From Phycisphaera sp. (GTDB lineage: Bacteria > Planctomycetota > Phycisphaerae > Phycisphaerales > UBA1924), in contig CP098402.1 in assembly GCA_025916675.1 (NCBI GenBank), forward strand, positions 1,049,205 to 1,113,204: a DNA stretch of 64,000 nt, in the 5' to 3' direction. The position numbers were made by a program, and so were the translations under genes. Below, one piece after another: positions 7,501 to 12,614 of the stretch. A model generated the notes under the pieces. The model ran no database searches. It had not been told where the DNA came from and saw only the letters and a list, made by a program, of their open reading frames with translations. Position 1 is the stretch's first letter. Each line of letters starts with the position of its first letter.

Positions 7501-7791
7501 CTGCACGAACGCCTGGGCGGCGTCGACCACGCCGGCCAGCAGGTCCAGACGCTCTACAACAGCGTGTGGCCCAAGTACGACGAGAGCCAGCTCGTCGACG
7601 ACGAGGTCGAGATCGCCGTGCAGTTGCTGGGCAAGGTCAAGGCACGCATCATGGTGCCCGCCGACGCCGACGCGAAGAAGCTCGAGGCCATCGCGCTCGA
7701 CCACCCGGAGATCAAGCCCCTGCTGGAGGGCAAGACCGTCCGCAAGGTCATCGCCGTCCCAGGCCGGCTCGTGAACATCGTCGCGAACTGA
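4504..7791 (+). CDS. leuS: Leucyl-tRNA synthetase with enlarged editing region
   Basis: It charges tRNA-Leu. The HIGH-type motif is HVGH at residues 74-77 (PYPSGAGLHVGHPEGY), the editing-domain signatures are TTRPDTIFGATF and GAIMAVPAHDERDFAF, and the catalytic loop is KMSKALK at 856-862. At 1095 residues it is far longer than the common 860-880. The extra length is mostly a helical block of about 135 residues (roughly 465-600) between the editing core and WLFSRQRYWGEPFP. The KMSKS loop reads KMSKA, so the second serine is alanine. ATG 4504 is preceded by AAAGAGG. The stop abuts the convergent pheT stop with no spacer. Confidence 0.97.
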   Translation: MTETASPNPAPSSTTPAHRYNAGLANAIEPKWQKLWLDGGVHHRPNPGERGFDASKPKYYVLDMFPYPSGAGLHVGHPEGYTATDILGRYKKMAGHNVLHVMGWDAFGLPAEQHAINTGEHPARFTRGTIDTFRRQLQRFGFAYDWSREVATIDEDFYRWTQWIFLKLYNSWFDPWLKKARPIAELRSELENGDLRIAGDGSLMHVGRTSKTLMAIGGEPGTQRRWHELSPQDQRAAIDDQRLAYVGEQTVNWCPKLGTVLANEEVIDGRSERGSHPVYRKPLKQWMLRITSYADRLLEGLDTVDWPDDTRSKQRHWIGKSEGAEVDFALDIDTDDPDIDADLPPAMRVFTTRPDTIFGATFMVIAPEHPVVDAVLRTPRPETPTDELRAYAQKARNTADVDRQAAKDKTGVFTGLHAINPVTGDRVPVYVADYVLMGYGYGAIMAVPAHDERDFAFAEKFGLTIRDVVYPVAISAMAYYVTHAAPAETGDAYWLSTLADMLGYVTSNDLTPKDFGHALSHVRMNRRGDQPVPIERKQLVEASPADLADTERWRGAVRHQWMDTLESLFGQSFDKLRETFANGGYYASQGQPYDGNGYAANSTATVEGSTVSLDGMPTGKAKATITNWLDQTGIGRRRTNFKLRDWLFSRQRYWGEPFPIVFTEDGDHYPVDADALPVKLPDIADYEPAESETPQPLLAKAADWVRTTAGDAGCSALDSDTIVYRETNTMPGWAGSCWYYLRYADPHNDDALVSKQAQAYWLGERGVDLYIGGSEHAVLHLLYARFWHMVLYDLGHVDSPEPFRKLYHQGMITSFAYQRKDKTLVPIDQVENTGTEDAPKHVESATGESVVQIVAKMSKALKNVVNPDDIIAEYGADTFRLYEMYMGPLEASKPWNTRDIMGLHRFLQRLWRLIIDEETGQPRIADSADTEVDKQLHRTIAKVEGDIERLSFNTAIAAMIELVNLGTSKAGTSGGVFTQQQARRVAAMLAPFAPHTADELHERLGGVDHAGQQVQTLYNSVWPKYDESQLVDDEVEIAVQLLGKVKARIMVPADADAKKLEAIALDHPEIKPLLEGKTVRKVIAVPGRLVNIVAN

Positions 7792-9912
7792 CTACGAGCG
7801 CACTTCCGCGCTCACCGCGTCACGCAACGCCGCGATCGTCCGCTCCATCTGCGGGTCGACCTCCTCGTGCCGCAGCGTCCGCTCCGCATCGCGGAAGCCC
7901 AGCCGGAGCGTGACGCTCTTCTTGCCCTCACCCACCTGCTTGCCGCTGTAGGTGCCCACGAACGCCACGCCCTGCAGGCGTTCAAGCCCGAGCCCCTCGA
8001 CCGCCTTCTCGATCGTCGCCCACGGTGTCGCGCTCGCCACCACCACCGACAGATCCCGCTCGATCCCCGGGAACGCCGGCAGCGCGCTCACCTTCGGTGT
8101 CGGCGGGTACGCTTCGAGCAACGGCTCCAACTCCAACTCCGCGACAATCACTGGCCGCTGAAGATCGAACAACGCCAGCGTCTCGCTCGTCGGCAATCCG
8201 AAGTAGCCCAGCTCGACCGAGCCACCCGCACCATCCACGAACACCCGCCCGGCATTGGCCGAGTCCATCGCCGCCGGCAGGTCGCCGCCCGCCTCCACGC
8301 GAACCTTGGCCTCGTGCCCAAAGCACAACGCCACCATCGCCTCGATACCCGCCCGCGCGACGCGAACCCCGTGCTGCACGTCCTCGGCCTTCGCCTTGGG
8401 CCCCTCGCCCCCGGCATCAACCACCATCGCGATCTTCCGAGATTCCTCGTTCGTCCCCTCGCGCATCGACCAGAACGTGGCCGACACCTCGAACAGCCGG
8501 ATGCCGCCGTCCTGATGCACCTGCGCATCGCGATTCACCCGCCGGCACGTCAGCAAACTCGGCAGCACGCTGGGCCGCAGCGTCGGCTCGGCCCCGCGTC
8601 GATCGTCGTCGACGTTCACCAGCGAAGCATTTTTTGGTAAGAACGGCGTGGCCTTGTCCGGGCTCGTGAAGCTGAAGGTCACGGTCTCGAAGAACCCAAG
8701 GGCCGTCAGCGCGCGGGCGATGCCCTCCATCGCTCGCTCCTCGGGCTGGGGCGGCTGCGCCTTGATCGCTAGCCGCCTCGCCAACGGCACCGCGTCGAAC
8801 CCGCGCAGTCGAGCCACTTCTTCGATCAGATCGGCCTCACGCGTCACATCGTGCGAGCGTTGTGGTGGGGGGGTGCATGCCAACGCGTCGTCCTGCACGC
8901 GCACCTCGACGTCCACCGAACGCAGCAGCCGCACGATCTCGTCCGCCGGCGTCTCGATGCCCAGCACCTTCGCGCACCGCTGGGGCCGCAGCGTGATCGC
9001 CTTGCCCTCGGGCAGCGGAGCGCCCTCAACGAGCGCCCCCTCGCACAGCGTGCCGCCCGTCAACTCCGCGATCAACCGCGCTGCCACCTCCGCCGCCGGC
9101 AGACACGTCCGCGCATCGACCACCCGCTCGAACCGGTGGCTCGCGTCCGTCCGCACCGCGTGCCCCCGGCTGGCCTGCCGCACGCGCTCGGGGTCCCAGG
9201 TGGCGACCTCCAGCACGATGTTCGTCGTGCCCTCGTTCACTTGAGAGTTGGCTCCGCCAATCACGCCCGCCAGCGAGGTCGCCTTCGCCCCATCGGCCAC
9301 CACGATCTCGCCCGACTTCAGCTTCCGAGAGACCCCATCCAGCGTCGCCAGCGGCTCGCCCTCGGACGCCTCGCGGATGACCAGCGTCCGGCCTTCCAGC
9401 GTGTCCAGGTCGAACACGTGGCTCGGGTTGCCGTGCTCCAGGTTCAGCCAGTTCGTCACGTCCACCGCGCTGTTGATCGACCGCTGCCCCACGCTCTCGA
9501 GCAACTCCCGCAGCCACGCCGGGCTCGGGCCGATGGTCGCCCCCAGGATGACGTGGGCCGTAAAGGTTGGGCACGCCGGCCGATCCCCGCCGCTGCACCG
9601 GTTCTCCAGCTTCAGGTGCTCGCCAACCGCCGGCCCCCGGGCGACCTCGCCGATCTCACGCGGCGTCACCACCCGCCCGGTCATCGCCGCGATCTCGCGC
9701 GCCAGCCCCAGGTGGCTCAGGCAGTCCCCCCGGTTGCTCGTCACCTCGACGTCCAGCAGCGCGTCGGCCCCCTTGGGCTCGATGCCGTCCAACGGGAAGC
9801 CAGCCGCCGTCAGCGCGGCGTCCACCTCCTCGACCGTCAAAGGCGAATCGGCACCCTCACCCCCCATACCTCTGTCGAGAAGGGAGGCGAGCCATGTGAG
9901 GCTTGCGTCCAT
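7792..9912 (-). CDS. pheT: Phenylalanyl-tRNA synthetase beta subunit lacking the tRNA-binding OB domain
   Basis: Domains in order are a short B1 piece (residues 1-45), then directly DVEVTSNRGDCLSHLGLARE, the B3/B4 region (QRSINSAVDVTNW, LAGVIGG), B5, the synthetase-like core (GFFETVTFSFTSP) and a C-terminal FDX-ACB domain (FPGIERDLSVVV). In most bacteria an EMAP-like tRNA-binding domain of about 110 residues sits between the first and second pieces. Here it is absent, giving 706 instead of about 790 residues. I chose ATG 9912 because it gives the conserved N-terminal TWLASLL helix; the frame upstream is a shadow. pheS is not in the window. Confidence 0.93.
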   Translation of the reverse strand: MDASLTWLASLLDRGMGGEGADSPLTVEEVDAALTAAGFPLDGIEPKGADALLDVEVTSNRGDCLSHLGLAREIAAMTGRVVTPREIGEVARGPAVGEHLKLENRCSGGDRPACPTFTAHVILGATIGPSPAWLRELLESVGQRSINSAVDVTNWLNLEHGNPSHVFDLDTLEGRTLVIREASEGEPLATLDGVSRKLKSGEIVVADGAKATSLAGVIGGANSQVNEGTTNIVLEVATWDPERVRQASRGHAVRTDASHRFERVVDARTCLPAAEVAARLIAELTGGTLCEGALVEGAPLPEGKAITLRPQRCAKVLGIETPADEIVRLLRSVDVEVRVQDDALACTPPPQRSHDVTREADLIEEVARLRGFDAVPLARRLAIKAQPPQPEERAMEGIARALTALGFFETVTFSFTSPDKATPFLPKNASLVNVDDDRRGAEPTLRPSVLPSLLTCRRVNRDAQVHQDGGIRLFEVSATFWSMREGTNEESRKIAMVVDAGGEGPKAKAEDVQHGVRVARAGIEAMVALCFGHEAKVRVEAGGDLPAAMDSANAGRVFVDGAGGSVELGYFGLPTSETLALFDLQRPVIVAELELEPLLEAYPPTPKVSALPAFPGIERDLSVVVASATPWATIEKAVEGLGLERLQGVAFVGTYSGKQVGEGKKSVTLRLGFRDAERTLRHEEVDPQMERTIAALRDAVSAEVRS

Positions 9913-11256: not shown

Positions 11257-11789
11257 GGTCGGGCTCCTGTTCTGCGTGGGCAACCCGGCCTTGGCCGCAC
11301 CGCCCCGGTTTTCCATCGGCCGGGCACCCGCCCGACCCAACCGGTTGATCGACGGGCCGCCGGGGCGGCTTTTGTCCAATTCGAATGGTTTCGGAACATT
11401 TTTATAAGTTTTGTCCAGGCAGAAACTTACGTTCCTCCAAAAAACCACGCCCGGGCCGCCCCAACCCACGCCCGCCGTCCGAAAACGCGATGCGGGAAGG
11501 CTTCCGACCGCGATGGGAGGCGTTCCTGACGCGGTGGGAAGGGTTCCCGACGCGGTGGGAGGGGTTCCCGACGCGGTGGCGGGCCTTGCGGACGCGATGG
11601 AAGGGCCGGCCGACGCGATGGGCGGCCCCCCTGACGCGATGGCAGGCCCGCCCGACGCGCTCGGAAGCGTTCCCGACGCGGTGGGACGGGCACCCACGCG
11701 GCGGGCGGCCCGAACGTCGGCCCGCGCCCACCAGACCCCCTTGCATTGCCGCCAGGTTTCCGGTATGCTGGCCGCAGGAGGCACCCACC
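11257..11789. other. 533-bp divergent intergenic region with AT-rich island and repeat array
   Basis: No credible gene was seen. The region holds an AT-rich island at 11370-11420, with two direct copies of TTTTGTCCA (11370-11378 and 11409-11417) flanking a TATAAG box at 11403-11408. That is unusual in this GC-rich DNA and promoter-like. The 21-bp repeat array follows. All six frames across the array are open because the repeat contains no stops, so open frames here are not evidence of coding. Confidence 0.7.
11484..11715. repeat. Degenerate 21-bp tandem repeat array, about 10-11 copies
   Basis: The unit is close to GACGCGRTGGGARGGGTTCC. Units begin near 11506, 11528, 11549, 11570, 11591, 11612, 11633, 11654, 11675 and 11696. 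The period is 21 bp for nearly all units and 22 bp for the first two. Copies differ at several positions but keep GACGCG and often an internal GGGA...TCCC dyad. It lies just upstream of the GC-type dockerin gene, whose own RBS and ATG come 75 bp after it. Confidence 0.85.
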
Positions 11790-12614
11790 ATGCCCACGCC
11801 CGCCGCCACGCTCGTTCTGCTCGCCGCCGCCGCCCTCGGCCTCGCTCCCGCCGCCGCGCGGGCCCAGGTGCGGCTGTCGCACAGCGTGGAGGACGTGGTC
11901 CACGCGGGCGGTGGTGTCGCGTGCTATTACATTGAAGGCGGCCAGCAGACCACCACCGACAACCGCTGGTCCAAGTCCTTCACGCTGGCCGACTTCGGCG
12001 TCGATACGGGCCTGGCCGTCCACACCGTCGAGTTCGGCGTGGAGTTCGTGGCGCTCGAAGCCCTGGACGCGATCGACGTCACCATCAACCTGTACCAGCT
12101 CCCCGCGGGCAGCCCGCCGGTCTCGGGCGCCGACCGCATCGGCTCGACGGTCGTGACGTTCCGCCCGCCCGACCTGCCCCGGCTCGAGATCGTCGCGGTG
12201 GCCGTGGACGCCACCGTCGAGGCGGGCACGGCGCTGATGGTCGAGGTGTCCGTCCAGGATTTCGCCGTCCTGGCGGGGGGGCTGTTCGGCGACCAGTTCT
12301 TCATCGGCGGCAACTTCCTGGGCATCACCGGTCGCAGCTATATTGCCACCGATGGGTGCGGCTTCCCCGAGCCGATCTATGCCGATTGTGGTTTTGTTGG
12401 CGAGTGCAACTGGGTCATCGTGGCCGAGGGCCGGCGGCTGGAGGCCTGCCCGGCCAATCTCGACGGCGACGGCACGCTCACGCTCTTCGACTTCCTCGCC
12501 TTCCAGAATCGCTTTGACGCGATGGATCCCATCGCCGACTTCGACGGTGACGGCGACTTCACACTCTTCGATTTCCTCGCCTTCCAGGACGCCTTCGACG
12601 CGGGCTGCGAGTAG
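11790..12614 (+). CDS. Secreted GC-type dockerin domain-anchored protein
   Basis: ATG 11790 follows AGGAG at 11776-11780. The 274-residue product has a signal peptide (LVLLAAAALGLAPAAARAQ) and a beta-rich body with two Cys pairs. Two C-terminal calcium-loop repeats follow, NLDGDGTLTLFDFLAFQNRF and DFDGDGDFTLFDFLAF, ending GC plus one residue. This terminal pair is a Phycisphaerales hallmark and is thought to act in surface anchoring or assembly. The body (YIEGGQQTTTDNRWSKSFTL) resembles an adhesin-like jelly-roll, but I cannot name it. The same C-terminal module recurs at 50638-51276. Confidence 0.85.
   Translation: MPTPAATLVLLAAAALGLAPAAARAQVRLSHSVEDVVHAGGGVACYYIEGGQQTTTDNRWSKSFTLADFGVDTGLAVHTVEFGVEFVALEALDAIDVTINLYQLPAGSPPVSGADRIGSTVVTFRPPDLPRLEIVAVAVDATVEAGTALMVEVSVQDFAVLAGGLFGDQFFIGGNFLGITGRSYIATDGCGFPEPIYADCGFVGECNWVIVAEGRRLEACPANLDGDGTLTLFDFLAFQNRFDAMDPIADFDGDGDFTLFDFLAFQDAFDAGCE

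Follow-up and report, generated by a model that had tools for sequence, protein, structure and literature searches.

A bacterial-type phenylalanyl-tRNA synthetase β subunit without the B2 domain in a Phycisphaera genome, and the occurrence of the short form in other bacteria

In published domain maps of bacterial phenylalanyl-tRNA synthetase (PheRS), for example in PMC3275996, B2 is drawn as a standard part of the enzyme; according to the same text, tRNA is bound by the PheS coiled coil with the catalytic module, and its anticodon loop by B8. The absence of B2 has already been published for the PheRS β subunits of CPR bacteria, such as OGE14653.1 (excerpt of PMC5370408), and according to an excerpt of PMC12494982, M. 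pneumoniae survives when its PheT is divided into B1-B2-B1 and B3-B8.

The gene analyzed here, pheT, is located at 7792–9912 on the minus strand of the window, that is, the whole 64,000-nucleotide stretch of Phycisphaera sp. DNA, and encodes a phenylalanine–tRNA ligase β subunit of 706 amino acids plus a stop codon, as its translation, Pfam and TIGR00472 indicate. An earlier sequence-only reading of this DNA had proposed that the OB domain is missing from this PheT and that its other domains are intact, and both statements were confirmed. PF01588 (tRNA_bind) was not found in the protein by Pfam even at E ≤ 1, nor in the pheT locus and the open frame upstream of it by a six-frame search of the genome. 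TIGR00472 (bacterial PheRS β) matched with 439.3 bits against a cut-off of 402.65, spanning profile positions 158–798 only, and the score with the archaeal-type profile TIGR00471 was below the cut-off (77.3 vs. 282.65 bits). B3_4, B5, tRNA_synthFbeta and FDX-ACB, all four, exceeded their Pfam cut-offs, in agreement with the AF2 model and the structural alignment described below. The start codon at 9912 agrees with the alignment to other short PheTs, which begins at residue 1; the in-frame stretch preceding this position is antisense to a plus-strand ORF.

All domains lie on the minus strand. The first half of B1 (residues 1–47, 9772–9912) was delimited by alignment to residue 1 of other short PheTs, by the AF2 model and by structural alignment to T. 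thermophilus β from residue 1. It is followed by a hinge (residues 48–49, 9766–9771; occupancy alignment and AF2 model), where B2/OB of about 100 or more residues sits in other bacterial PheTs. Here the B1 halves join at about residue 48/49 and the sequence reads LDGIEPKG-ADALLDVEVTSNRGDCL; E. coli PheT has about 100 extra residues at this point. The second half of B1 with the DVEVTSNRGDCL motif and the linker to B3 (residues 49–112, 9577–9768; alignments) leads to the B3/4 editing domain (residues 113–286, 9055–9576; Pfam B3_4 and alignment), B5 (residues 306–372, 8797–8997; Pfam and six-frame genome search), the catalytic-like B6/B7 module (tRNA_synthFbeta, residues 382–595, 8128–8769; Pfam) and the anticodon-binding B8 domain (FDX-ACB, residues 612–705, 7798–8079; Pfam). 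As to the surroundings, the plus-strand leuS ORF ends at 7791 and is convergent with pheT, the two stop codons directly abutting. Farther along the window, an ORF at 11385–12614 carries near its start about 10 seven-residue (21-base) units of EGFPTRW type (about 11496–11705, seen by eye in the translation) and ends in two DGDG-type dockerin-like repeats.

The AF2 model, for which 39 short PheTs including the window's own were aligned, had a mean pLDDT of 91.7 and a pTM of 0.63; a prediction without alignment was poor (pLDDT 37.1) and was left aside. In the model, strands 41–47 and 50–55 flank the hinge with a tight turn between them. Compared with T. thermophilus PheRS β (1pys_B), 653 residues covering residues 1–706 were aligned with a Z-score of 47.9, an rmsd of 8.7 and 33% identity, and the T. 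thermophilus β chains altogether matched along the length with Z-scores of 47.9–48.2. The rmsd of 8.4–10.0 Å against bacterial PheRS β chains, obtained with a model of a single chain without PheS or tRNA, is taken as a different placement of domains. B2 is an insert in the B1 hinge, which in its absence would close as a short hairpin, and because of this position its absence would leave the rest of PheT unchanged.

The domain had been said to be present in most bacterial β subunits, and this agrees with the PDB chains matched, whose 11 distinct sequences measure 785–845 amino acids, the length of B2-bearing chains. The absence is no peculiarity of the window PheT. In an alignment of 161 PheTs, the stretch corresponding to residues 45–147 of E. 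coli PheT was occupied by fewer than 10 residues in 84 proteins and by at least 100 in 77. The rows comprised 80 loci found when contigs were scanned with 20 aligned short PheTs, the earlier loci, and the PheTs of the window and of E. coli; L151 was left out, and L172 was typed as B2-bearing by its occupancy. Since occupancy is bimodal over the 161 PheTs, a chance absence is excluded. Short forms among the named loci belonged to Planctomycetota (22), Acidobacteriota (7), Omnitrophota (4), Nitrospinota (1) and Nitrospirota (1), and three had no phylum label, two of them being titled Aminicenantes; most named loci come from metagenome-assembled genomes labeled by their depositors.

Profile searches extended this distribution. 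Among the best 150 matches from 248 genomes of the window's class, 130 begin at profile positions 145–161 and the other 20 at position 1. For Planctomycetota (294 genomes), the 150 listed matches comprise 76 short forms, 10 of which are from genomes of the window's class, 73 long ones and one left unclassed (G358, start at 104); G341 (start at 191) was counted as short and two matches starting at 24 and 32 as long. Both tallies are hand counts of the 150 best matches, and the window's own genome, a weaker match, falls outside both lists. In the group of the acidobacterium G529, which includes the Aminicenantes genome G527 and is called here the Acidobacteriota group, all 68 above-cut-off matches in 80 genomes begin at position 146 or later; one of them starts at 207 and has an additional piece at 157–192. 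Eleven of the 80 genomes had sub-cut-off matches only (five starting at 154–160, four covering only about 342–692, and two fragments or traces), and one had no match. In several genomes of this group a separate piece covers profile positions 1 to about 40 directly before the main match, which means that just the B2 stretch is missing from those PheTs. TIGR00472 accordingly fails to match about the first 150 positions of short PheTs or matches them as a separate piece, and the lack of an OB domain in a PheT does not indicate that a part is missing. In some long PheTs of the class, B2 is too divergent for PF01588 to reach its cut-off (E 0.00163 in G080, L003; 0.00103 in G022, L023; 0.37 in G124), and in those of G002, G038 and G059 B2 gave no PF01588 match even at E ≤ 10. 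A PheT without B2 is a known kind, and no printed account of how widely it occurs in the Acidobacteriota group and Planctomycetota was found: a literature search judged by titles and abstract beginnings, with incomplete listings and few subscription journals covered, returned no report of B2 loss in either phylum.

The short state is probably an old inherited property of many bacterial PheTs, not a recent accident. A tree was built by a quick method from 131 of the 161 rows, retained after filtering at 62% identity and by length, with the B1/B2 part left out. On this tree the B2 state changes six times (mean of 43.8 when shuffled), the starred branches force only one change, and the deep branches are weak, the two halves being separated at a support of 55. 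Nine B2-bearing rows fall among the short ones (E. coli, four Verrucomicrobiota, L160, L177, L178 and L179), and the short L188 is placed on the B2-bearing side. Planctomycetota have two bacterial types of PheT, short and long; 25 long rows form one group with a support of 99, and five more long planctomycete rows (L003, L005, L033, L037 and L057) are placed outside it. A third type in this phylum is archaeal, as TIGR00471 scored above its cut-off in all 16 low-scoring genomes tested. Ten of these 16 archaeal-type sequences served as the root of a second quick tree, of 71 chosen rows, with 61 bacterial-type PheTs.

On an alternative account of the short form, B2 was never present in it: short bacterial PheTs would keep the archaeal and eukaryotic arrangement, and B2 would have been inserted in the other bacterial lines. 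The grouping of most short PheTs on the 131-row tree speaks for this, as does the alignment of human FARSB (3l4g_B) and the Pyrococcus β chain (2cxi_A) to the model from residue 1. In the rooted tree, however, the group of short planctomycete PheTs (13 rows) is placed next to B2-bearing Verrucomicrobiota with a support of 83, the starred branches force at least two changes of the B2 state, and there is no firm branching order at the base of the bacterial part. On these sequence data repeated loss of B2 appears to suit the rooted tree somewhat better, and we consider an original absence a minor, though real, possibility.

The archaeal-type PheTs of Planctomycetota show a further state of this position. 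In 13 of the 16 examined (among L192–L205), B1 carries a CxxC...CxxC zinc-ribbon-like insert where B2 sits in bacterial enzymes, and L197, L206 and L207 are without it. Two of these inserts, scanned with Pfam, gave only weak rubredoxin- or zinc-ribbon-like matches below the cut-off (E about 0.005), and our literature search, by titles and abstract beginnings, did not find the insert described. The B1 hinge might be an evolvable slot that within one phylum is either empty or filled by an OB domain or a zinc-ribbon-like insert, and whose empty state is ancient and stable in at least the Acidobacteriota group and much of Planctomycetota, tRNA capture for editing being solved without B2; this generalization could equally well hold or fail.

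Another explanation concerns the consequence of the absence, namely that enzymes without B2 edit Tyr-tRNA-Phe less well and that the host bacteria tolerate this. Roy and Ibba, in a work of 2006, reportedly found B2 to be dispensable and to contribute to editing, as the title has it, and if B2 does help editing, the reaction may be weaker in the short enzymes. Against this, N154, H165 and E235 of the window PheT align to T. thermophilus N250, H261 and E334, which we take to be the editing-site residues, and all three are invariant in the 84 short as well as in the 77 B2-bearing PheTs. The editing domains of Mycoplasma, by contrast, are degenerate according to an excerpt of PMC7373986. Conservation of residues is no measure of rate, and we think weaker editing rather unlikely. 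The partner subunit is likewise present: a single PF01409 gene, pheS, was found in the genome (E 6.1e-90) about 22 kb from pheT, and its product can be aligned with E. coli PheS over the full length, the segment preceding the catalytic core included. Given the invariant editing residues and the intact PheS, an ordinary PheRS without a dispensable module is most likely. In such an enzyme, PheT would pair with this single, normal PheS, charging would proceed via the tRNA contacts of the N-terminal coiled coil of PheS and of the C-terminal anticodon-binding B8, both of which are present, and post-transfer editing would take place at the intact B3/4 site; normal charging and editing by the window PheRS are what we infer.

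The sequence-only reading had also raised the possibility that a free-standing OB protein substitutes for B2. A stand-alone tRNA-binding protein does exist in this genome, as that reading had suggested looking for, yet it is of MetRS-β type and not a part of PheT. This protein of 131 amino acids (C1:2450551–2450847; L001:1414–1809) is the sole OB protein of the genome and passes the cut-off of TIGR00399 (MetRS β; 126.3 vs. 116.65 bits), scoring only 29.7 bits with TIGR00472. The best PF09334 (MetG-type) gene is a 542-amino-acid frame without an OB domain (C1:1772698–1773780; L063/L064), and the two genes are unlinked. MetRS of this bacterium thus appears to be split into the MetG-type frame and a separate MetRS-β-type OB protein. 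The OB fold of Trbp111, according to an excerpt of PMC11286949, reads the 3′ CA end of tRNA.

That the 131-amino-acid protein acts in trans as the B2 of PheRS is suggested by the finding of no other PF01588 domain in the genome and by the frequency of small OB frames in the class, and it is contradicted by other genomes besides the profile scores. Nine of the 16 genomes tested combine a short PheT with an OB domain found only in a frame of 670–693 amino acids, and KMSKS stood in the same ORF as the OB in all six loci read. In four of these nine, G056, G018, G063 and G069, single-contig genomes of the same class with a PheT match from profile positions 146–157, the only PF01588 lies in a frame of 673–690 amino acids, with KMSKS in the OB ORF in three of them (loci read). 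No OB match was obtained at E ≤ 10 in G186, which has a short PheT, and G002 and G038 have a long PheT plus a small stand-alone OB protein. Among the 18 genomes behind the short named PheTs, an OB match was present in 16: in 12 within frames of 632–768 amino acids (KMSKS seen in eight of these loci; one genome has a second, small OB), and in four, which would suit action in trans, only in small frames. The two genomes with no OB match are both small and perhaps incomplete. As the occurrence of the small OB protein does not follow that of the short PheT, the OB protein of this genome most likely belongs with MetRS on the evidence of these sequences, and its service to PheRS is very improbable.

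A broken or mis-assembled pheT, or a second full-length copy elsewhere, is practically negligible as an explanation: the genome is one contig of 3.6 Mb and 99.97% complete, the four other domains are above cut-off, and G090, G209 and G217, the three other members of its family among the matches listed, also start at profile positions 157–158. The two finds named by the sequence-only reading as refuting it, an OB domain in this gene by profile search and a second full-length pheT, were both looked for and neither was found. The six-frame search returned one PF01588 place at E ≤ 0.001, away from pheT, and one B5 domain, that is, one pheT.

Considering these results together, the window PheT is very probably an ordinary, functional PheRS β subunit without the dispensable B2, in an old inherited state shared with the Acidobacteriota group, much of Planctomycetota, Omnitrophota and others, and with no replacement in trans. 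It would be a complete bacterial-type chain, short of the auxiliary B2 (OB/EMAP-like) module only, for which no OB protein would stand in. As whole groups of bacteria lack B2 but keep the editing site, natural short and long enzymes can be compared directly to test what B2 does.

Compared with known systems, the chains of human FARSB (3l4g) and Pyrococcus (2cxi), which we take to lack the OB insert, align to the model of the window PheT from residue 1, and the match of 3l4g_B ends near residue 600, so that the C-terminal B8 part is not covered. Among free-standing OB proteins like MetRS β and Trbp111, the genome has the one of 131 amino acids, MetRS-type by profile and no part of PheT. The CPR PheRS β subunits (OGE14653.1), likened here by the description in an excerpt of PMC5370408, are bacterial-type and lack B2 like the window PheT, in other phyla. 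The β subunits of T. thermophilus and E. coli (1pys, 3pco) have the B2 OB insert of about 100–110 residues in B1, which the window PheT has not, and share with it the order B1, B3/4, B5, B6/7 and B8, the same three editing residues and a structural match along the chain.
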